Assembly (NCBI GenBank): GCA_007692605.1
Contig: REBS01000081.1
Span: 19,849-83,848 of the forward strand
Direction: 5' to 3'
Length of the DNA stretch: 64,000 nt
Source of the DNA: Gemmatimonadales bacterium
GTDB lineage: Bacteria > Gemmatimonadota > Gemmatimonadetes > Longimicrobiales > Gaopeijiaceae
Shown: positions 6,853 through 17,280 of the stretch, piece by piece
Layout: each line of letters opens with the position of its first letter
Position numbering within the stretch: the first letter of the stretch is position 1
Translations under genes and position numbers: made by a program
The notes under the pieces: model-generated
The model's input: the letters and a program-made list of their open reading frames with translations, nothing else
Database searches by the model: none
Told to the model about the DNA's origin: nothing

Positions 6853-7323
6853 ATGTTCAACCCCAGAGAACTCGTGAAGGAACTGCAGGAGATGCGCGAC
6901 GGCGGATTTCTGTCCGACGCCCTCCTCCGCCATGCCGTCAAGGCGATCCACAGCTCCGACAGTCGCTACGACTGGGTCGGTGTGTACCTCCTGAACGACG
7001 AGGGCGACGAACTCTGGCTGCATAACTACGTGGGTTCGCCGACGGAGCACTCCAGGATTCCCGTGGGTGAGGGGATCTGCGGGCTGGCCGTCGCCGAGAA
7101 GGCCAACCAGAACATTCCCGACGTCTCCGAGAACGAACACTACATCGCCTGCGACCCCGATGTCGAGTCGGAGCTGGTGGTCCTGATTCGTGCCGGCGAC
7201 CAGATCTTCGGACAGCTCGACCTCGATTCGCAGGAGGCCGCGGCCTTCACCGACGAGGACGAGGCCGCGATCCAGGCCGTCTCCGACAAGCTGGCCGAAC
7301 AGCTGATGGCCGAGCGCCGCTGA
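6853..7323 (+). CDS. GAF-domain protein, free methionine-(R)-sulfoxide reductase-like
   Basis: A 156 aa single GAF domain. The family fRMsr (YebR type) reduces free Met-R-sulfoxide using a Cys in IACD. Here that Cys is present (Cys100, HYIACDPDVESELV), as is the second family Cys (Cys76, GEGICG). The position ten residues before Cys76, where E. coli has the third redox Cys, is His66. The rest of the fold (GQLDLDSQEAAAFTDEDE) matches well. Either the enzyme resolves its sulfenic acid differently or this is a ligand-binding GAF protein. The start has GAGGA about 10 bases upstream. It sits 47 bases before the MBL hydrolase, possibly one transcript. Confidence 0.8.
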   Translation: MFNPRELVKELQEMRDGGFLSDALLRHAVKAIHSSDSRYDWVGVYLLNDEGDELWLHNYVGSPTEHSRIPVGEGICGLAVAEKANQNIPDVSENEHYIACDPDVESELVVLIRAGDQIFGQLDLDSQEAAAFTDEDEAAIQAVSDKLAEQLMAERR

Positions 7324-7370: not shown

Positions 7371-8180
7371 ATGGAGCCCCGCGTCGTCCGAGCCGACAAC
7401 GCGGGGCTCTTTACGCTCGACGGGACCCGCACCCACCTGCTGGGACGCAGGCGGATGGTGGTCATTGATCCCGGCCCGGAGTCGGCTGCGCACCGGGATC
7501 GCCTCCTCTCGGTCCTGGCCTCCGGGGGGGCCCAGGAGGTGCGGATCCTGGTCACCCATGACCACCCGGACCACGCGGGGGGGGTCGCCTCGCTCGCAGA
7601 CGCTCTGGCGGAGTCGGGCGTCGACGTGCGGGTTCGTGCGTCGCCCCTCTCGTCGTTGGCCGAGCGAGAGTCGCTGCCCTTCATGCCCCTCGAGGAGGGC
7701 GACGAGGTGCCCACCGATGTGGGGCGGCTTCGTGCTCTGGAGACGCCCGGACACACCCGCGATCACCTTGCATTCCACTGGTCCGGTGGCAATGCCCTCT
7801 TCGCGGGGGACCTCCTGCTCGGTGAGGGGAGCACGGCCTGGGTCGGCTCCTACGCGGGGTGCGTGGCCGACTACCTTCAGTCGCTGCTGCGTATCGAGAC
7901 CCTTCAGGTGCGGCGCATTCTTCCCGCCCATGGACCCCCGATCGACGACCCGCACGAGGCGATCGGCCGCTACCGTGAGCATCGTCTGCGACGGATCGGC
8001 CAGGTGCGTGAAGCCGTGGGGTCGAGCCCCGGCGCCACGATCGGAGAGCTTGTGGATCGGGTCTACGGGCCGGAACTGCCCCCCGGCCTTCGTGACGGCG
8101 CCGCGTGGAGCGTTCGGGCGATCCTCGACCACCTCGGGGAACGCCCATTCCCCCACGACGGCCCGGACGGCGAAGGGTGA
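7371..8180 (+). CDS. MBL-fold metallo-hydrolase (LACTB2-like)
   Basis: A 269 aa cytosolic metallo-beta-lactamase-fold hydrolase. The zinc motif is complete: THDHPDHAGG (HxHxDH), ETPGHTRDH, FAGDLLLG (bridging Asp) and ILPAHGPP. The C-terminal 80 residues form a helical winged-helix-like extension (REHRLRRIGQVREAV onward), typical of the LACTB2/hydroxyacylglutathione-hydrolase-like group. Human LACTB2 is an RNase, but bacterial members are mostly uncharacterised, so the substrate is open. AAGGAG sits 8 bases before the ATG. Confidence 0.88.
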   Translation: MEPRVVRADNAGLFTLDGTRTHLLGRRRMVVIDPGPESAAHRDRLLSVLASGGAQEVRILVTHDHPDHAGGVASLADALAESGVDVRVRASPLSSLAERESLPFMPLEEGDEVPTDVGRLRALETPGHTRDHLAFHWSGGNALFAGDLLLGEGSTAWVGSYAGCVADYLQSLLRIETLQVRRILPAHGPPIDDPHEAIGRYREHRLRRIGQVREAVGSSPGATIGELVDRVYGPELPPGLRDGAAWSVRAILDHLGERPFPHDGPDGEG

Positions 8181-8266: not shown

Positions 8267-10846
8267 TTGTCCACGACGCTCCCCCTCGTACCCTCCCTTC
8301 CCCTGGCTCTTCGGGGAAAACTCGCCGACGTGGTGGGCGACGACCACCTGATTACCGATCCCGACCGGCTCCTGGTGTACGAGTCCGACGGCCTGACGCA
8401 GTACCGGTTCTCGCCCTCGGCCGTGATCCTGCCCGGGAGCGCCGCGGAGCTGCAGGAGGCCGTCCGAATCCTTCACCTCGAGGGGCGCGCCTTCGTGGCC
8501 CGGGGAGCGGGCACGGGACTTTCGGGCGGTGCCCTGGCGACGGGGGGAGCGGTCGTCATCGGGACGGCCCGCCTGAACCGTATTCTCGAGGTCGATCCCG
8601 CGAACCGCCTGGCCCGGGTCGAGCCCGGTGTGGTCAATACGGAGCTGACCCGGGTGACCCGCCCCCACGGGCTGATATATGCACCCGACCCGTCGTCTCA
8701 GAGCGCATGCACCCTCGGGGGGAATGTGGCCGAGAATTCCGGGGGGCCGCACTGCCTCAAATACGGGGTCACCTCGCGGTACGTGCAGGCGCTCACCGTC
8801 ATTCTTCCCGATGGGCGCTCGGCTCGTCTCGAGGGCGCGAGCCGGGGCTGGCGTGGGCCGGACTGGATCGGGCTCTTCGTAGGCTCGGAGGGCTGCTTCG
8901 GGGTGGTCACCGAGATCGAGGTCGGACTGATTCCGGAGCCTGCGGGGGTGCGCACCCTCCTGGGCATCTTCGATTCACTCGAAGGGGCCGGGCGCGCGGT
9001 CACCGCGATCATTTCGAGTGGAATCCTTCCCGCAGCGCTCGAGATCGTCGACCAGGAGACGATCCGGGCCGTCGAAGCCTCGGTGTTCGCGGCCGGATAC
9101 CCGACGGACGCGGGCGCCGCGCTCGTGGTCGAGCTCGATGGGGTCGAGGAAGGGCTCGACGCCGAGCTCGAGCTGGCGGCCACCTGCGTTCGAGACGAAG
9201 GGGCCTCGGAGGTGCGTATCGCCCAGTCCGACGAGGAGCGAACCGCGCTCTGGGCGGGCCGAAAGCGCGCCTTCGGCGCCATGGGACGGATCGCGCCCGA
9301 TCTTCTCGTCCAGGACGCCACGGTGCCGCGCAGCCGACTCCCCGCGGTCCTGCGGCGGATCGGCGAGATCGGGGACCGCTACGACCTCACCATCGCGAAC
9401 GTCTTTCACGCCGGCGACGGAAATCTCCACCCGAATCTCCTCTTCGACCGAAACGACGCCGAGGAGCTGGCCCGGGTCGAGGCCGCCTCGCGCGAGATCA
9501 TGGAGGTCTGCATCGAGGTCGGAGGCACGATCACCGGGGAGCACGGGGTCGGGATCGACAAGCGCGGATACATGGAGAGGGTGCTGAGCCCCGAGGTCCT
9601 GCACGCCATGTCCGAGGTCCGCTCCGCTCTCGATCCGTTCGGTCTCTGCAACCCCGGAAAGGTACTGCCCGACGAGCTGCCTGCCCGGGCGGAGCTTCCG
9701 AACGAGCCGCTGCCCGCCCTGGACGCGGGGCCGATCGAGGTGGAGTCGGACCGACACGCTGCAGCGCTCCTCGCGGCGGCGTCGAGGGAGGGGGTCAGTG
9801 TGGTGATCGGGGGGGCGCGATCATCGGGGGCTCCACCGGGCCCGCACCTGCGACTCTCGGCCCGGGGGCTGCGTGGGGTGATCGACCACTCTCCTCCCGA
9901 CCTGACCGTGACGGTCGGGGCGGGGACCCCGGTCGGAGAGCTGCAGGAGGCGCTGCTGGCCTCTACGCAGTGGTTTCCCCTGGATCCCCCCGGAGGCGGA
10001 GCGACGACGATCGGGCAGGTACTCGCCGGGGGGCTCGATGGCCCCCTGTGCACCGGGTACGGGCGACTCCGCGATCATCTCCTCGGAGCCACCCTCGTGA
10101 CCGGCGAAGGCCGGGTTCTGGAGCTGGGAGGTCGGGTGGTGAAGAATGTGGCCGGCTTCGACCTTCTGCGGCTGACCGTGGGGAGCCGGGGGGCACTCGG
10201 GCTGATTACCCGCCTCACCCTCCGCCTCTTTCCCCTGCCGGCGGTCGACCGGACCCTCGTGTGGACCATCGAGGATCCACTCGAAGCGGCCCGTATCGGG
10301 ATGCGCATGGCCGCGACCGGTTCCCCGGTCGCGGCGCTGGAGTGGATCGCGGGAGAGTTCGGGGGGGAGTCTCCCAGCGATGGCAGGCTGCCCGTCGGGG
10401 CCCTGGTCGCGGCGCGTCTGCACGGAAACCGCCCTTCGGTCGAGGCGATGGCCCGAACGCTCGAGGCGGCTGCGGGGGTCGGGCCGCGGGTGCTCGAAGG
10501 CGAGGAGTCGGCCGGGTGGTGGGAGCGTCGAGCCCGTCGCGAGGGGACCGGGGCCGTGTCGACGGTGGTCTCGACCCTCGCGTCCAGGGCCGAGTCGGTG
10601 GCCGAAGCCACCCACCGGTGGGTCGACCTCGGGGGCCGGGCCTCGCTCCACCTGGTGGGGGGTGGCGTCCGCCTCGATCTGGATCCGGCCGGCGAGCGTG
10701 CGGTGGATCGTGCCCGTGCGCTTCTGGACGAAGTGGCCCGAGCGGGCGGGGTCACCCCGGCGCCGTCGCCCGAGCTGTCCGGGGTCCTCGGTGTCTTCGA
10801 TCCCGCCGGGATCCTGCCGGGCCGATGGAGAGAGTCATGGAGCTGA
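8267..10846 (+). CDS. GlcD-GlcE fusion: FAD-linked 2-hydroxyacid (glycolate-type) dehydrogenase
   Basis: An 859 aa protein joining two paralogous FAD-binding (VAO/PCMH-fold) units. Residues 1 to about 470 match GlcD: RGAGTGLSGGALATGG FAD loop, CTLGGNVAENSGGPHCLKYG, then the catalytic-domain NVFHAGDGNLHPNLLFD and ITGEHGVGIDKRGYM. Residues about 490 to 859 match GlcE: VTVGAGTPVGELQEAL, TTIGQVLAGGLDGP and VVKNVAGFDLLRLTVGS. In E. coli these are separate subunits of glycolate oxidase. It starts on TTG. The next gene, GlcF-like, begins inside its last codons, so the two should be made together as one membrane-associated complex. D-lactate or another D-2-hydroxyacid is an equally possible substrate. 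Confidence 0.9.
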   Translation: MSTTLPLVPSLPLALRGKLADVVGDDHLITDPDRLLVYESDGLTQYRFSPSAVILPGSAAELQEAVRILHLEGRAFVARGAGTGLSGGALATGGAVVIGTARLNRILEVDPANRLARVEPGVVNTELTRVTRPHGLIYAPDPSSQSACTLGGNVAENSGGPHCLKYGVTSRYVQALTVILPDGRSARLEGASRGWRGPDWIGLFVGSEGCFGVVTEIEVGLIPEPAGVRTLLGIFDSLEGAGRAVTAIISSGILPAALEIVDQETIRAVEASVFAAGYPTDAGAALVVELDGVEEGLDAELELAATCVRDEGASEVRIAQSDEERTALWAGRKRAFGAMGRIAPDLLVQDATVPRSRLPAVLRRIGEIGDRYDLTIANVFHAGDGNLHPNLLFDRNDAEELARVEAASREIMEVCIEVGGTITGEHGVGIDKRGYMERVLSPEVLHAMSEVRSALDPFGLCNPGKVLPDELPARAELPNEPLPALDAGPIEVESDRHAAALLAAASREGVSVVIGGARSSGAPPGPHLRLSARGLRGVIDHSPPDLTVTVGAGTPVGELQEALLASTQWFPLDPPGGGATTIGQVLAGGLDGPLCTGYGRLRDHLLGATLVTGEGRVLELGGRVVKNVAGFDLLRLTVGSRGALGLITRLTLRLFPLPAVDRTLVWTIEDPLEAARIGMRMAATGSPVAALEWIAGEFGGESPSDGRLPVGALVAARLHGNRPSVEAMARTLEAAAGVGPRVLEGEESAGWWERRARREGTGAVSTVVSTLASRAESVAEATHRWVDLGGRASLHLVGGGVRLDLDPAGERAVDRARALLDEVARAGGVTPAPSPELSGVLGVFDPAGILPGRWRESWS

Positions 10847-12123
10847 GAGCCGCCCTCGAAGAGCAGAAGGACCGCCTGGGGCACTGCGTGCATTGCGGCT
10901 TCTGCCTGCCCGTCTGCCCGACCTACATCCAGCTCGGCGACGAGGCCGACTCGCCCCGCGGGCGTCTCCACCTGATGCGCGCCGTGGTCGAGGGCCGGCT
11001 GGAGCCCGAATCCGATGCCTACCAGCTCCACCTGGATCGGTGCCTTGGGTGCCGGGCCTGCGAGACGGTCTGCCCCTCGGGTGTGGAGTACGGCTTTCTG
11101 CTGGAGCGGGCCCGTGCGCTCGCCGTCGAGGCCCGTCGGCCTCCGCTGCCCGTTCGCCTTCTGCCGGCCCTCATGGCCCGGGATGGGGCGCGTTCCGTCG
11201 CCCTCGGGATGGGGCGGGTGATCCGTGGCACGGGGATTCCCGAGACGATGGCCGGACGCCTGCCGACGACCGGCCTGTGGGGTCGGGTGGGGCTGGCCAT
11301 GGGCATGCTGGCCAGCAGCCGCCCGAGCCGACTCGACGCCGGCTCGGATGCGGGGAAGGCGAAGACCCGGCCGCGCAACGATCCTCCCTCGCGGGGTCGC
11401 GTCGCGATGCTCACCGGGTGTGTGCAGAGCGGGCTCTTCGCACATGTGAACCGCGCCACCCGTACCGTGCTCGAGGCCAACGGCTGGGAGGTGGTCGAGG
11501 TCACGGGGCAGGGGTGCTGCGGAGCGCTCCACGCTCATTCGGGGCGACTCGATCAGGCCCGGGAGCTCGCGCGTGTGAACGTGTCGGCATTCACGGCCGC
11601 CGGGGTGGATCACGTGATCTCGAACGCCGCCGGGTGCGGCGCCCTCCTGCGCGAGAGCGGAGAGCTGCTCGAAGACGAAGCGGCCGAAGCGATGGCGAAG
11701 AGCGTGCGGGACATCTCGGAGCTGCTCGCCGGAGAGGGCCGCGAGCCCGTCCGCGGGGCGCCCCTGCCCCTCAAGGTCGCGTACGACCCCCCGTGCCACC
11801 TGCACCACGCGCAGCGGGTGACGACCTCGCCCCTGCGCCTGCTCGAGAGCATTCCCGAGCTCGAACTGGTCCCGATTCCCGGGGCCGAGGAGTGCTGCGG
11901 GGGTGCGGGGATCTACGGCATCACCCACCAGGATCTGGGGGGGCGGGTGGGCCGCCGGAAGACCGACGCGATCCTCACCACCGGGTGTGATGTCGTGGCC
12001 ACCGGCAACCCCGGCTGCCAGATGCAGATCGGGGCGGGCCTCCTGGCCGCCGGAGAACGCATCCGGGTGGTCCACCCCGTCGAGCTCCTCGCCGAAAGCT
12101 ACCGGAGGGCAGGATGGAGCTGA
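10837..12123 (+). CDS. glcF: GlcF-like iron-sulfur subunit of 2-hydroxyacid dehydrogenase
   Basis: A 428 aa electron-transfer subunit. The N-terminus carries two [4Fe-4S] ferredoxin motifs, CVHCGFCLPVCPTY and CLGCRACETVCPSGV. The C-terminal half has the CCG domains: GQGCCGALHAHSG, then AYDPPCHLHHAQ and EECCGGAGIYGI. These bind a non-cubane or heterodisulfide-reductase-type cluster and pass electrons to quinone. The track ORF extends far upstream in this frame, but that part is a shadow of glcDE. I start at ATG 10837 (MELRAALEE), preceded by GGAGAG, giving a 10-base overlap with glcDE and likely translational coupling. ATG 10825 is an alternative. Confidence 0.92.
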   Translation: MELRAALEEQKDRLGHCVHCGFCLPVCPTYIQLGDEADSPRGRLHLMRAVVEGRLEPESDAYQLHLDRCLGCRACETVCPSGVEYGFLLERARALAVEARRPPLPVRLLPALMARDGARSVALGMGRVIRGTGIPETMAGRLPTTGLWGRVGLAMGMLASSRPSRLDAGSDAGKAKTRPRNDPPSRGRVAMLTGCVQSGLFAHVNRATRTVLEANGWEVVEVTGQGCCGALHAHSGRLDQARELARVNVSAFTAAGVDHVISNAAGCGALLRESGELLEDEAAEAMAKSVRDISELLAGEGREPVRGAPLPLKVAYDPPCHLHHAQRVTTSPLRLLESIPELELVPIPGAEECCGGAGIYGITHQDLGGRVGRRKTDAILTTGCDVVATGNPGCQMQIGAGLLAAGERIRVVHPVELLAESYRRAGWS

Positions 12124-12148: not shown

Positions 12149-12985
12149 GTGAAGCCGGTCTTCATTCGCTCGCTCGAAAACCGAGGGGAGTTCGCGGCCT
12201 GCGTTCGTATCCAGGAGGAGGTCTGGGGGCGGAATTTCTCGGAACGGGTCCCGATCGCGATCCTCCAGGTGACGGACCGGCTGGGCGGGGTCGTCATGGG
12301 CGCCTTCGACTCCGACGACCGGATGGTCGGCTTCGTCTTCGGACTCACCGGCATGGAGGAGGGCCGGCCGGTCCACTGGTCCGACATGCTGGCCGTGCTC
12401 CCCGAGTACCGGGGCAGGGGGATCGGGCGTCGCCTGAAGCTCGCGCAGAGGGAGCGGCTCATCGAGCTAGGCGTGGAGCGGGTCTACTGGACCTTCGACC
12501 CCCTCGAGGCTCGCAACGCCCACCTTAACCTGGTCCGCCTCGGGGGCTGGTCGGCGGAGTACGTCGAGGCGATGTACGGCACCTCGGATTCGCCTCTTCA
12601 TTCCGACATCGGAACGGATCGGCTTGTGATCACGTGGGAGGTTCAAAGTCCCGAGGTGAAGGCGCTCCTCGAGCCGGCCGCCGGCGAAGTCCCCCTCCCC
12701 TTTCCAGAGCTCGAAGAGGCACCGATGGCGGTCGAGGGCGGCTTCAGCTCCGGGGTGCTCGAGCCCACCGCCCCCCGCCTCAACCTGCGCAGCTCGCTGA
12801 TCCTGCTCGCGGTACCCGGATCGATCCAGGAGCTCAAGAAGGACCATCCGCGCGCCGCCACCCGATGGCGCGAAGCGACCCGGGAGGCGTTCCAGGTGTA
12901 CCTGGCCGGAGGGTGGGTCGTACGGGGGGGGATCTTCTCGCCCGATGGGAACCTCTTCCGATACATTCTTGTTCGGGATGAGTGA
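12149..12985 (+). CDS. GNAT-superfamily N-acyltransferase (COG3375-like)
   Basis: A 278 aa protein with a GNAT core: MVGFVFGLTG on the central strand, then AVLPEYRGRGIGRRLKLAQ, the acyl-CoA pyrophosphate loop, and RVYWTFDPLEARNAHLNL. The C-terminal 110 residues are an extra domain usual in this predicted-acetyltransferase group. In Geobacillus a GNAT of this general kind succinylates D-amino acids beside an N-succinylamino acid racemase, and here the same kind of enolase is two genes downstream. I use GTG 12149, with GAGG about 5 bases upstream; GTG 12143 is also in frame. It follows glcF by 25 bases. The acyl donor and acceptor are inference. Confidence 0.8.
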   Translation: MKPVFIRSLENRGEFAACVRIQEEVWGRNFSERVPIAILQVTDRLGGVVMGAFDSDDRMVGFVFGLTGMEEGRPVHWSDMLAVLPEYRGRGIGRRLKLAQRERLIELGVERVYWTFDPLEARNAHLNLVRLGGWSAEYVEAMYGTSDSPLHSDIGTDRLVITWEVQSPEVKALLEPAAGEVPLPFPELEEAPMAVEGGFSSGVLEPTAPRLNLRSSLILLAVPGSIQELKKDHPRAATRWREATREAFQVYLAGGWVVRGGIFSPDGNLFRYILVRDE

Positions 12986-13009
12986 GGGCGTTCGCGGCGA
13001 AGAACGTCC
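12986..13009 (+). terminator. Intergenic hairpin between the GNAT and FAD genes
   Basis: GGGCGTTC pairs with GAACGTCC (8 bp, one G-U pair) around an 8-base loop, directly after the GNAT stop codon. No T-run follows, so it may be an mRNA stabiliser or attenuator rather than a full stop, because the downstream genes look functionally linked. Confidence 0.35.
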
Positions 13010-13051
13010 CGAACGTGCGTCGCACTCCATCCCTTTCCCGGAGCCAAAACC

Positions 13052-14317
13052 ATGACCTCAGATTCCGATCCCTTTCAGCGCCCCGAGGTCGGTCCCATCC
13101 GTCGCCTGGCGGTCCTGGGTGCCGGGCCCGTTGGACTCGACGCCGCCCTGGCGGCCCGCGACGCCGGGTTCGCGCTTCGTGTCTACGAGGCCGGCCCCCA
13201 TCCGGCCGCTCATGTCCGGCGCTGGGGGCATGTGCGCCTCTTCTCGCCCTGGTCGATGAACCTGTCCGATCGGATGCGGGAGGGGTTGTCCGCGATCGAC
13301 GGACCGCTCGAGGTCGACCCCGACGCGTCGCCGACGGGGAACGAGCTGGTCGACCGGGTCTTCGACCCCCTCTGGTCCACAGCCTTCCTGAGAGATGCCT
13401 TGCGCACCGGGACCCGGGTCCTGGCCGTGGGGCGTCAGGGCACGCTCAAGCACGAGGAGATCGCTTCGGCGACCCGCGCCAGCCGGCCCTTCCGCATCCT
13501 GGTTCGGGACGAGACGGGCACCGAGCGGACCGAGTTCGCCGACCTGGTCCTCGACTGCACCGGCAAGTTCGGAAATCCCAACACCCTGGGTGACGGGGGG
13601 ATCCCGGCCCCCGGCGAGCGGGCGCTCGAAGACCGGATCGAGCGCTGGCTGCCCGATCTCGACCGTGAGGCCGATCGATGGGCCGGGGGAACGACCCTCC
13701 TGGTCGGGAGCGGCCACTCGGCGCAGACCGCCGTGCGCGCCCTCGACGCCCTCGCTCGCCGGACACCGGGCACCCGGGTGGTCTGGGCGATGCGCAGGGA
13801 TGACCCGGAATTCGGGACGGACCCCGATGATCCACTCCCCCTGCGCAGGGAGCTTGTTGCCGAGGCCTCGCGGATCGCGCGTGGCGACTCCTCAGGGGTC
13901 GAGCCGGAGCTCGGGGTGGTCGTCGACGCCCTGGAGTCCGCTTCGGACGGGGTGAGCGTGCGCCTGCGACGTGGGGGTGCCGACGTGCGGGAGATTCGGG
14001 CCGATCGGATTCTGGCGCTGACCGGAGGTGTGGGCGACGCGGGGCTCTATCGGCAGCTTCAGATTCACGAGTGCTACGCCACCTCGGGCCCGATGAAGCT
14101 CTCGGCTGCCCTTCTGGGGAGTGGCGGAGGGGACTGCCTGGCGCAGGAGAGCCATGGAGTCGAGACGCTCATGAACCCGGAGCCGGGCTTCTTCATCCTG
14201 GGCGACAAGTCCTACGGGCGGAACAGCACCTTCCTCCTGCAGGTCGGCTGGAGCCAGGTCGACGAGGTGTTCGCGGCGATCGGTGCCGGAGCGGCCCCGG
14301 GAACGTCCCCCCCATGA
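13052..14317 (+). CDS. FAD/NAD(P)-binding oxidoreductase, substrate unknown
   Basis: A 421 aa flavoprotein with an N-terminal FAD Rossmann motif (VLGAGPVGLDAALAARDAG), an RLFSPWSMNLS segment, and a second nucleotide-binding motif (LLVGSGHSAQTAVRALDAL). The layout resembles flavin monooxygenases and thioredoxin-reductase-like oxidoreductases. A late FFILGDKSYGRNSTFLLQVGWSQV contains the usual final FAD-contact region. There is no redox CxxC and no clear monooxygenase fingerprint. Its stop overlaps the next start as ATGA, so it is almost certainly translated with the racemase-type enolase. A role in oxidising an amino acid or acylamino acid is possible but unproven. Confidence 0.7.
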   Translation: MTSDSDPFQRPEVGPIRRLAVLGAGPVGLDAALAARDAGFALRVYEAGPHPAAHVRRWGHVRLFSPWSMNLSDRMREGLSAIDGPLEVDPDASPTGNELVDRVFDPLWSTAFLRDALRTGTRVLAVGRQGTLKHEEIASATRASRPFRILVRDETGTERTEFADLVLDCTGKFGNPNTLGDGGIPAPGERALEDRIERWLPDLDREADRWAGGTTLLVGSGHSAQTAVRALDALARRTPGTRVVWAMRRDDPEFGTDPDDPLPLRRELVAEASRIARGDSSGVEPELGVVVDALESASDGVSVRLRRGGADVREIRADRILALTGGVGDAGLYRQLQIHECYATSGPMKLSAALLGSGGGDCLAQESHGVETLMNPEPGFFILGDKSYGRNSTFLLQVGWSQVDEVFAAIGAGAAPGTSPP

Positions 14318-15420
14318 AGATCGACCGCGCCGAGCTCCGGGAGATCCGCCTTCCCCTTCGCGAGCCCTTCGCCATCAGCTCCGGGGTCTGGAGCGAGCGC
14401 AGGGTGATCCTGTTGCGGCTCGAGGGCGAGGGCGTCGCGGGCTGGGGCGAGTGCGTCGCCGCCGAGGACCCGTCGTACTCTCCCGAGACCACCGATACGG
14501 CGTGGCATGTGCTGACCCGCTTCCTGGTGCCCGGACTCCCGGGCCGCGAGATCATGGGGCCGGCCGAGGTGTTCACCCACGCCCCGTGGGTCCGGGGCAA
14601 CCGCATGGCGAAGGCCGCCGTCGAGATGTCGGTTTGGGACTTGTGGGCGAAGAGCCTGGGGGTTCCGGTCTGGGAGCTTCTGGGCTCCTCCGGACGGGCG
14701 ATCCGGGTGGGGGTGAGCGTTGGGCTGCAATCGAGCGATGACACCCTGCTCGGGAAGGTCGAGGGCTACCTGAAGGAGGGGTACGCGCGGATCAAGCTCA
14801 AGATCAAGCCCGGCCGCGACGTCGAGATGCTGCGCGCGGTGAGGGACCGGTTCCCCGAGGTCTCCCTGATGGCCGACGCGAACTCGGCGTATACCCTCTC
14901 GGATCTCCCCCGCCTGCGCGAGATGGATGACCTGGGTCTGACGATGATCGAACAGCCGCTGGGCCACGAGGACCTCCTCGATCACGCGGCGCTGCAGGCG
15001 GACCTGCGCACCCCGATCTGTCTCGACGAGTCGATCCGCTCGCTCGACGACCTGCGCCTGGCTCTTCACCTCGATGCCGGGCGGGTCGTGAACCTGAAGC
15101 CGGGCCGCGTCGGCGGGCTGGCGGAGTCTCTGCGAATCCATCGGCTCTGCTCGGAGCGCCAGATCCCGCTCTGGTGCGGGGGAATGCTCGAAACGGGGAT
15201 CGGACGCGCCTTCAATGTCGCGCTGGCGGGACTTCCGGGTTTCACCCTCCCGGGCGACATTTCGGCGAGCCGGCGCTACTGGGAGCGCGACATCGTGCGC
15301 CCGGAGTGGGAGCTTTCGTCGGGAACGATCACCCCGGCGTCCGGGCCGGGTATCGGTGTGGAGCCCGATCTCGAACGGATCGACGAACTGACGCACCGAA
15401 AGGTGACCTTTCCCGACTGA
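14314..15420 (+). CDS. menC: Enolase-superfamily o-succinylbenzoate synthase / N-acylamino acid racemase
   Basis: A 368 aa enolase-superfamily enzyme of the MLE subgroup. The catalytic set is complete: Lys161 and Lys163 in RIKLKIK, metal ligands Asp188 (MADANSAY), Glu213 (MIEQPLG) and Asp238 (CLDESIR), and Lys262 (VNLKPGRVGG). This family includes OSBS (menaquinone synthesis) and N-acyl- or N-succinylamino acid racemases, and many members do both. No other men gene is in the window. The upstream GNAT acyltransferase and the downstream D-aminoacylase-like gene favour the racemase role. The symbol is given only by family; function should be read as OSBS/NAAAR. Coupled to the FAD gene by an ATGA overlap. 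Confidence 0.85.
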   Translation: MKIDRAELREIRLPLREPFAISSGVWSERRVILLRLEGEGVAGWGECVAAEDPSYSPETTDTAWHVLTRFLVPGLPGREIMGPAEVFTHAPWVRGNRMAKAAVEMSVWDLWAKSLGVPVWELLGSSGRAIRVGVSVGLQSSDDTLLGKVEGYLKEGYARIKLKIKPGRDVEMLRAVRDRFPEVSLMADANSAYTLSDLPRLREMDDLGLTMIEQPLGHEDLLDHAALQADLRTPICLDESIRSLDDLRLALHLDAGRVVNLKPGRVGGLAESLRIHRLCSERQIPLWCGGMLETGIGRAFNVALAGLPGFTLPGDISASRRYWERDIVRPEWELSSGTITPASGPGIGVEPDLERIDELTHRKVTFPD

Positions 15421-15516
15421 CCTCCGCGACTGACCTCCGCGACCGACGTCCTGACCGACGTTCCGACTGATGCTCCCGAGCCATCCCGTCCCTGCCCGAG
15501 CCAGGAGTCCCCAGGC

Positions 15517-17280
15517 GTGAAGCCGTTCGCCCTCTTCATCGTCGTCCTCTTTGTCGTTGCGGCCGCCCTTCCGGGCGCGGGGATTGCGCATGCCCAGATC
15601 ACCCCTCTCGATGGCTCCGGGGCACCGGACCGTTCGATCGGACCGCTCGCCGACGGAGCGTGGGACCTCCTCTTCGTCGGAGGGCGCCTGGTGGACGGAT
15701 CGGGGAATCCATGGAGCTACTCCGATGTGGCGATTCGTGATGACCGGATCGTGCGAGTTGCGCCGGCGGGCACGCTGAACCGGGCAGGCGCTCGCGAGGT
15801 GCTCGACATCTCGGGGCTCGTTCTGGCGCCGGGGTTCATCGATCTGAACGGGCAGTCCGACAACATGTATCTCGAGGACGGCTCGGCGCTCTCCAAGCTC
15901 TTCCAGGGGGTGACGACCGAGATCATGGGCGAGTCGAACACTCCCGCCCCCCTGGCGCCCGGGGAACGGGCCACGCACGTATCCGAAGCGGTGGCGGCAC
16001 GTCGGACGCGAGAGTGGCAGCGCTTCTCGGGCTGGCTCGAAGAGATGGAGGCGGGGGGGGTGGCGCTGAATGTCGGCTCCTTCCTGGGTGGGACCACGGT
16101 GCGGCGGCACGCCATGGGCCAGTCGCAACGCACGCCCAATCCCGCGGAGCTGCAGCAGATGCGGGAGGTCACGGAGCAGGCCATGAAGGACGGCGCCTTC
16201 GGGGTCGCGACCGCCCTCATCTACCCCCCGGGCGCCTATGCGGGGATCGACGAGCTCGTCGAGATCGCCGAGGTCGTGCAGGCCCACGGCGGCCTCTACA
16301 TCACCCACATGCGGAGCGAGTCCTACTTCATTCTCGATGCGCTCGAGGAGGCAATCGAGATCGGCGAGCGGTCCGGGGTCCCGGTCGAGATCTTCCACCT
16401 GAAGGTGGCCGGACGCGACAACTGGGACAGGACCGACGACGTGCTCGGGGTCATCGAAGACGCCCGGCGGCGCGGACTCGACGTGAGCGCCGGGATGTAC
16501 CCGTACACCGCGGCTTCGACAGGGCTGACCGCCTGCTTCCCCCCATGGGTCCAGGCCGATGGAGGCCTCTATCGGAACCTGGCGGACCCCGAGGCGCGCA
16601 GCCGGATCCGGGCGGAGATGACCGGCCCGCCGACCCGGTGGGAGAACTGGTGTCGGCTGGCGGGCCCGGAGGGAAGCGTGATCGCCACCGTATCGAACCC
16701 GGACCATGTCCGCTGGGTGGGCCGGTCGCTGGCCGAGGTGGCCGCGGAGCGCGGGGTCGACTGGATCGATGTGACCATGGATCTCGTTCTGCGGGATCGC
16801 TCGCGGGTCGGGATGATCTACTTCGCCATGGACGAGGACCGCGTACGGCAGAAGCTCGCGCTCCCCTACATGAAGTTCGGCACGGATGGCGCCGGCTGGA
16901 ACCCGAACCGGGCCGGTGGGCAGCCGCACCCGAGGGCCTACGGTAGCTACCCCCGAATCCTGGGCCGGTACGTGCGCGACGAGGGGATCATCACCCTCGA
17001 AGACGCGGTCAGAAAATCATCGTGGGCCGTCGCGGAGCGGCTGGGGCTGCAGGACCGGGGTCTGGTCGTCGAGGGCTTCATGGCGGATCTCGTCGTCTTC
17101 GACCCGGAGACGATCGAGGAGCGGAGCACCTACGAGCGGCCTCACCAGCTGGCCGAGGGAGTCCACCACCTGTACGTGAACGGCCAGGCGGTGATCTCGC
17201 ACGGTCGCGCCACCCCGGCCCGCCCGGGGCGGTTCCTGAGGGGCCCGGGCTGGGTGCCCCCCGAAGATCCGGATCGCTGA
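15517..17280 (+). CDS. Secreted D-aminoacylase-like amidohydrolase (N-acyl-D-amino-acid deacylase family)
   Basis: A 587 aa amidohydrolase with an N-terminal signal peptide (FALFIVVLFVVAAALPGAGIAHA). The D-aminoacylase fold is clear: LVDGSGNPWSYSDVAIRDDRI, GVTTEIMGES (Glu139 at the bridging position), LYITHMRSES, VEIFHLKVAG and FGTDGAGWNP for the metal-ligand His, His and Asp, and the C-terminal composite domain. The usual HxH of strand 1 is replaced: LAPGFIDLNGQSDN has Asn-Gly-Gln (111-113). A one-metal active site is therefore likely. It would act in the periplasm on N-acyl-D-amino acids or related amides. It starts on GTG, 96 bases after the racemase gene, and closes the operon. Confidence 0.85.
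   Translation: MKPFALFIVVLFVVAAALPGAGIAHAQITPLDGSGAPDRSIGPLADGAWDLLFVGGRLVDGSGNPWSYSDVAIRDDRIVRVAPAGTLNRAGAREVLDISGLVLAPGFIDLNGQSDNMYLEDGSALSKLFQGVTTEIMGESNTPAPLAPGERATHVSEAVAARRTREWQRFSGWLEEMEAGGVALNVGSFLGGTTVRRHAMGQSQRTPNPAELQQMREVTEQAMKDGAFGVATALIYPPGAYAGIDELVEIAEVVQAHGGLYITHMRSESYFILDALEEAIEIGERSGVPVEIFHLKVAGRDNWDRTDDVLGVIEDARRRGLDVSAGMYPYTAASTGLTACFPPWVQADGGLYRNLADPEARSRIRAEMTGPPTRWENWCRLAGPEGSVIATVSNPDHVRWVGRSLAEVAAERGVDWIDVTMDLVLRDRSRVGMIYFAMDEDRVRQKLALPYMKFGTDGAGWNPNRAGGQPHPRAYGSYPRILGRYVRDEGIITLEDAVRKSSWAVAERLGLQDRGLVVEGFMADLVVFDPETIEERSTYERPHQLAEGVHHLYVNGQAVISHGRATPARPGRFLRGPGWVPPEDPDR

Follow-up and report, generated by a model that had tools for sequence, protein, structure and literature searches.

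Organisation of the locus

The window, a stretch of 64,000 nucleotides (G000:C168:19849-83848), comes from a genome (G000) of 3.55 Mb that is 94% complete. Four of its genes, all on the + strand, are the subject of this analysis. The first, which has a GTG start, encodes a GNAT-family N-acyltransferase of 278 aa (12149-12985; 35.6 bits to Pfam Acetyltransf_1 against a cut-off of 20.7), and is followed by a gene for an FAD/NAD(P)H flavoenzyme of 421 aa (13052-14317), an FMO/disulfide-reductase-like protein with the dinucleotide motifs GAGPVG and GSGHSA. The third encodes an NSAR/OSBS-type enzyme of the enolase superfamily of 368 aa (14314-15420), assigned by TIGR01928 with both MR_MLE_N and MR_MLE_C over cut-off, and the fourth, again with a GTG start, a predicted exported amidohydrolase of 587 aa (15517-17280) with a D-aminoacylase-like fold and an N-terminal signal. 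The preliminary description of this DNA had reported four neighbouring same-strand genes with an ATGA overlap between the flavoenzyme and enolase genes, and both features are seen in the sequence.

That description overlooked the substituted metal ligands of the amidohydrolase and the continuation of the same strand upstream. Directly upstream of the GNAT gene lies glcF (10825-12123, +), preceded by a GlcDE fusion of 859 aa (8267-10846, +), these being subunits of an unassigned FAD/FeS 2-hydroxyacid dehydrogenase, and by genes for an MBL-fold protein (7371-8180, +) and a GAF protein (6853-7323, +). As the + strand runs on through these genes with short gaps, the transcription unit may reach beyond the four genes and include GlcDE-GlcF, which are conserved upstream of the cluster across the family to which the window belongs (f1). 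A terminator scan found no terminator-like site in the gaps between the four genes; its one + strand match (12316-12329) is inside the GNAT gene, and matches were no commoner than in shuffled sequence.

Residues and family of the enolase

The enolase scores 353.6 bits against TIGR01928 (cut-off 200.65) in a profile search, and its closest solved structure is the Thermus N-acylamino acid racemase 2zc8 (E 7e-111), with 1r0m and 1sja among the further relatives. As had been claimed from the sequence at the outset, the catalytic set is complete, comprising K163 (of the KxK motif), D188, E213, D238 and K262, that is, both lysines and the three acidic metal ligands. These residues are invariant in 84 aligned relatives. 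Among named relatives, the one nearest to the enolase locus is in a Gemmatimonadetes MAG (L003), with 67% identity and an identical gene order, which points to Gemmatimonadota as the phylum.

Three residues past the second lysine lies an arginine, R265 (LKPGRVGG), the equivalent of R266 of the Amycolatopsis enzyme, a second-shell residue associated with racemase activity and reported as one of its determinants. It is intact in the window enolase and absent in 2 of the 84 relatives. Within f1 the arginine is kept in 72/72 enolases outside the GNAT-less set (a number that includes G211 and G337, both outside the GNAT search) and lost in 2/9 GNAT-less genomes, replaced by Ala in G275 and by Leu in G320, the other seven keeping it (Fisher p 0.011, 81 enolases). 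G275 and G320 sit next to each other in the tree and a single event may account for both losses, so that this association is weak evidence. In G320 the flavoenzyme, an M20 hydrolase and the amidohydrolase remain though GNAT and arginine have been lost, and the cluster is therefore not strictly tied to racemisation.

The acyltransferase and the flavoenzyme

The GNAT protein consists of an N-terminal GNAT domain and a C-terminal half without a match to known folds. Its AF2 model is of high confidence (pLDDT 93.7), and a fold search with it returned nothing but generic GNAT matches, which span about 165 aa. The gene is found in 71/80 f1 genomes, and in some of these (genus g2) it is located away from the enolase. 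Among 80 enolase loci, about 35, spread over Chloroflexi, Acidobacteria, Bipolaricaulota, Asgard archaea, Bacillota and other groups, have a GNAT homologue next to the enolase, often with an M20 hydrolase as well. GNAT and enolase are the known NSAR pair, common to many phyla, and we infer that the acyltransferase acts as an N-succinyl or N-acyl transferase on D-amino acids.

The flavoenzyme is less easily placed. Profile matches are partial, to flavin monooxygenases (8z12, E 1.6e-10, positions 11-230) and thioredoxin-reductase-like enzymes; the protein reaches no Pfam cut-off, its recognised parts are dinucleotide-binding motifs only, and it has no CxxC. Pfam FMO-like (PF00743) is absent among its matches up to E 0.001, and gives 11.7 bits against one relative (cut-off 22). 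The AF2 model (pLDDT 46) is too poor for use. A role as D-amino acid oxidase or dehydrogenase was considered and rejected, as the window protein has no DAO match. Close kin within f1 mostly travel with GNAT, M20 and enolase, and the flavoenzyme is a recurrent but optional, family-specific addition. Viral contigs were also searched for relatives and yielded none. Distant homologues (L173, L180 and L181) have Cys-rich C-terminal tails, and L173 is weakly similar to ArsO monooxygenases.

Conservation of the neighbourhood and the M20 hydrolase

GNAT, flavoenzyme and enolase genes are contiguous in 21/84 f1 genomes from six genera (G000, G100, G116, G191, G262, G216, G221, G265, G229, G078, G161, G082, G115, G279, G086, G164, G045, G224, G339, G099 and G117), and also in L003. 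Together with the GNAT-enolase pairs of many phyla, this bears out the conservation that a search of enolase neighbourhoods had been expected to reveal. The typical order in f1 is GlcDE-GlcF-(flavin reductase)-M20-(P-loop protein)-GNAT-FAD-enolase-(amidohydrolase), after which come convergent genes such as NtrC/HK/PilB.

An M20 hydrolase is absent from the window cluster, and it had been suggested that the amidohydrolase takes the place of this deacylase. That suggestion fails, as the M20 gene is present elsewhere in the genome (G000:C27:16178-17371) and stands beside the enolase in most relatives. Of 80 f1 genomes, 79 have it, in most cases at a distance of 1-4 kb from the enolase but in G000, G100 and G116 on another contig; the amidohydrolase is thus an addition to M20, not a replacement for it. 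In the sister family f5 the order is GNAT-enolase-M20D (TIGR01891 over cut-off) with a divergent amidohydrolase beside it, and GNAT adjoins the enolase in nearly all f5 loci that were read.

Two further observations concern the neighbours. The P-loop protein that several relatives have between M20 and GNAT (c20; L156:11660-12760 and six relatives) is weakly like DUF1611, the DgcN family, and is possibly a second amino-acid acyltransferase; its identification as DgcN could not be established, the best match (5.7e-5) covering the P-loop only and lying under the cut-off, with no solved relative. At L228 (G191:C142) a second GNAT-enolase pair adjoins an M55 D-aminopeptidase.

An amidohydrolase subfamily with altered metal ligands

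The closest solved structures of the amidohydrolase are D-aminoacylases (E 7e-88), which are subtype V amidohydrolases with a Cys/His/His metal site and an HxH motif that is essential in PpOngB (PMC12017989). To this extent the D-aminoacylase likeness first noted for the protein stands; filing it as a D-aminoacylase does not, since both the Cys and the HxH are absent. The metal site is half present, with the His220 and His250 positions kept, a GES sequence where Cys96 would be and NxQ (DLNGQSD) in place of HxH. Relatives in the phylum carry the same change, which makes it a trait of the subfamily: GE is invariant in cleanly aligned members, the first position of the HxH motif is Q, N, M, L or I and the second mostly Q or H. 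The catalytic aspartate (Asp366 position) is retained by every member that is in the right frame and covers the position, the rows L191, L195 and L196 having been left out of this reading as wrongly framed. As judged from the alignment, a Glu/His/His site as in NagA-type enzymes would be compatible with the subfamily. A pseudo-enzyme is not favoured, given that the two His, the Lys and the Asp are invariant and that the subfamily as a whole has kept a Glu where the Cys would be.

Secretion of the protein had also been proposed, and a signal peptide is visible: the N-terminus (VKPFALFIVVLFVVAAALPGAGIAHA) is of Sec type, and most members of the subfamily have either a signal peptide or a lipobox. 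D-aminoacylase-like amidohydrolases are very numerous in genomes throughout the phylum (up to about 60 first-look candidates in one genome), and their annotation as N-acyl-D-amino acid deacylases may be mistaken.

The amidohydrolase and the enolase are no more than 1.5 kb apart in 16 of the 82 genomes in which both are listed, with 0.24 expected under random placement, although the genomes are related and the figure is not a probability. Two architectures occur, co-directional and downstream of the enolase in f1, and divergent and next to GNAT in f5; in genus g2 there is a third link, about 8 kb at most separating GNAT from an amidohydrolase that adjoins a DAO-family gene. For the latter the best match is D-amino acid dehydrogenase (PRK00711), at 230 bits and under the cut-off of 383. 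The g2 loci in question are L225, L226 and L227, and in L226 and L227 an M19 dipeptidase, an S9 peptidase and GNAT are also near the amidohydrolase. Position beside enolase or GNAT in two architectures upholds the proposed link of the predicted exported enzyme to the pathway. It is nevertheless quite possible, if not the reading to which we lean, that the amidohydrolase serves a separate function, such as turnover of other amides, and stands beside the enolase by shared gene-order ancestry only; the large paralogous family in these genomes would fit this, as would its absence beside the enolase in most f1 genomes, while the two different orientations and the third link to GNAT in g2 speak against it.

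Menaquinone biosynthesis and the function of the enolase

The preliminary description made its reading depend in part on whether the genome has a separate men operon or a futalosine pathway, and counted men genes lacking only menC as a point against it. Such a gene set is present. A menD-menB-menA-menE cluster without menC is found at G000:C133 (L171), with menD, menB and menA over their cut-offs and a menE-like ligase at 278 bits (cut-off 330), and MqnA/D of the futalosine pathway were not found in G000. No other menC-type gene over cut-off was detected in that genome, where the window enolase, located outside the men cluster, is the only one; a second TIGR01928 match, on contig C28, was rejected as another menC because it is the glycolytic enolase. 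The presence of men genes, the lack of futalosine genes and the lack of another menC together indicate that the enolase probably serves as OSBS (MenC) as well.

A comparison of the two pathways across 346 genomes of the phylum separates the families. In f1 the enolase is present in 84/84 genomes, MenD in 76/84 and MqnA/D in 0/84. Among 78 enolase-bearing genomes of f5, on the other hand, 71 have MqnA/D without MenD and six MenD without MqnA/D, and all 12 f5 genomes with the GNAT-enolase-amidohydrolase arrangement belong to the former group. The same split appears in a published survey, in which SG8-23 prefers the classical Men pathway and Gemmatimonadales the futalosine pathway (PMC9426454). 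Since 71 of these 78 genomes have MqnA/D and no MenD, the f5 enolase is not needed as an OSBS; an enolase that stays with GNAT and M20 (and the amidohydrolase) in a family relying on the futalosine pathway argues that racemase activity explains the cluster. From these genome comparisons we infer a racemase function in f5 and bifunctionality in f1.

These data also bear on two narrower readings. According to the first, the enolase is an OSBS (MenC) only, and the GNAT, flavoenzyme and amidohydrolase are unrelated neighbours or relics of an older pathway. The men genes without any other menC are in keeping with this, as is the loss of M20 from the window cluster, and the N-acylamino acid racemase activity of such enzymes was earlier a side activity of OSBS, as in the Amycolatopsis case, racemase activity having been misassigned historically in this family (PMC4215206). 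We nonetheless consider the reading quite unlikely, because the enolase gene lies apart from the men cluster, its R265 is intact, GNAT is retained in most f1 genomes, and the enolase is kept by the 71 futalosine-using genomes of f5, almost always with GNAT beside it in the loci read. Very unlikely, finally, is an enolase that is a racemase only, with an unrecognised enzyme supplying o-succinylbenzoate, for although the neighbourhood is NSAR-like and not men-like and a menC could sit in a gap of a genome 94% complete, no second menC-type match (TIGR01927-type OSBS) is over cut-off in 80 f1 genomes, and a gap in one assembly is no explanation for that.

A proposed pathway for D-amino acids

We regard it as reasonably likely that the cluster encodes the NSAR route from D- to L-amino acids in a Gemmatimonadota form, with a bifunctional NSAR/OSBS enolase. 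In such a route the exported amidohydrolase would act outside the cytoplasm and free D-amino acids from their N-acyl derivatives or related compounds, and after uptake GNAT would N-acylate, probably N-succinylate, the D-amino acid. The enolase, to judge by its family and residues, would then racemise the N-acyl amino acid, and the M20 hydrolase, whose gene in G000 lies on a different contig, would deacylate the L-form and drive the route forward, as suggested by the known pathway and by the fact that most relatives carry the M20 gene next to the enolase. In G000 the enolase would also have to supply o-succinylbenzoate for menaquinone, the genome having menD, menB, menA and menE and, over cut-off, no menC-type gene besides it. 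A D-amino-acid context is seen in the dehydrogenase-like gene near GNAT in g2 and in the M55 D-aminopeptidase beside GNAT-enolase in G191. A more elaborate, tentative and rather unlikely form of the proposal is a two-compartment salvage in which an exported amidohydrolase of a Glu/His/His/Asp subtype and a redox step by the flavoenzyme would be joined to a bifunctional f1 enolase, the f5 orthologues being racemases only.

NSAR-dependent conversion of D- to L-amino acids is known. What appears to be new is the flavoenzyme, the linked subfamily of predicted exported amidohydrolases and the comparative-genomic case for one enolase in two pathways in f1 and in one in f5. It is an old question in the evolution of the enolase superfamily whether NSAR/OSBS enzymes really have both functions in the cell or are racemases by side activity only, and this phylum offers a clean comparison, f1 having the Men pathway with the enolase as the only MenC candidate and f5 the futalosine pathway with the same enolase, GNAT and M20. 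The linked amidohydrolases, in turn, represent a large and uncharacterised family whose likeness to N-acyl-D-amino acid deacylases does not extend to the defining ligands.

Comparison with known systems

In the pathway of Geobacillus kaustophilus, an NSAR/OSBS, a GNAT succinyltransferase and an M20 desuccinylase convert D- to L-amino acids irreversibly. The preliminary description had proposed a D-amino-acid or N-acyl-amino-acid pathway of this type, and the joint conservation of GNAT and an NSAR-type enolase supports it. The window resembles the Geobacillus system in the position of GNAT next to the enolase and in the presence of M20 in the genome, beside the enolase in most relatives; it differs in that M20 is off-locus in the window genome, that a flavoenzyme and a predicted exported amidohydrolase are added and that GlcDE-GlcF lie upstream. 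The GkNSAR/OSBS enzyme is listed in PMC8142540.

The D-aminoacylases AfDam and BbDam (subtype V, PMC12017989) have the closest solved fold to the amidohydrolase, with which they share two His ligands, the Lys and the catalytic Asp. Unlike them, the window subfamily has a GE motif for the Cys ligand and NxQ for HxH, and its members are usually exported or lipoproteins. As in NagA/CE9 (subtype IV, Glu/His/His, PMC12017989), a Glu may be the third ligand with the two His, as far as the alignment indicates, although the sequence of the window amidohydrolase is no closer to NagA/CE9 than to the D-aminoacylases.

Lastly, dgcN has been named the key gene of an irreversible racemisation pathway (PMC12363236), and the proposed route shares the logic of acylation, racemisation and deacylation with the DgcN/DgcA route for D-glutamate, which combines a DUF1611 acyltransferase with an enolase racemase. 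The P-loop protein with its sub-threshold, P-loop-only likeness to DUF1611 is carried by some relatives and is absent from the window.
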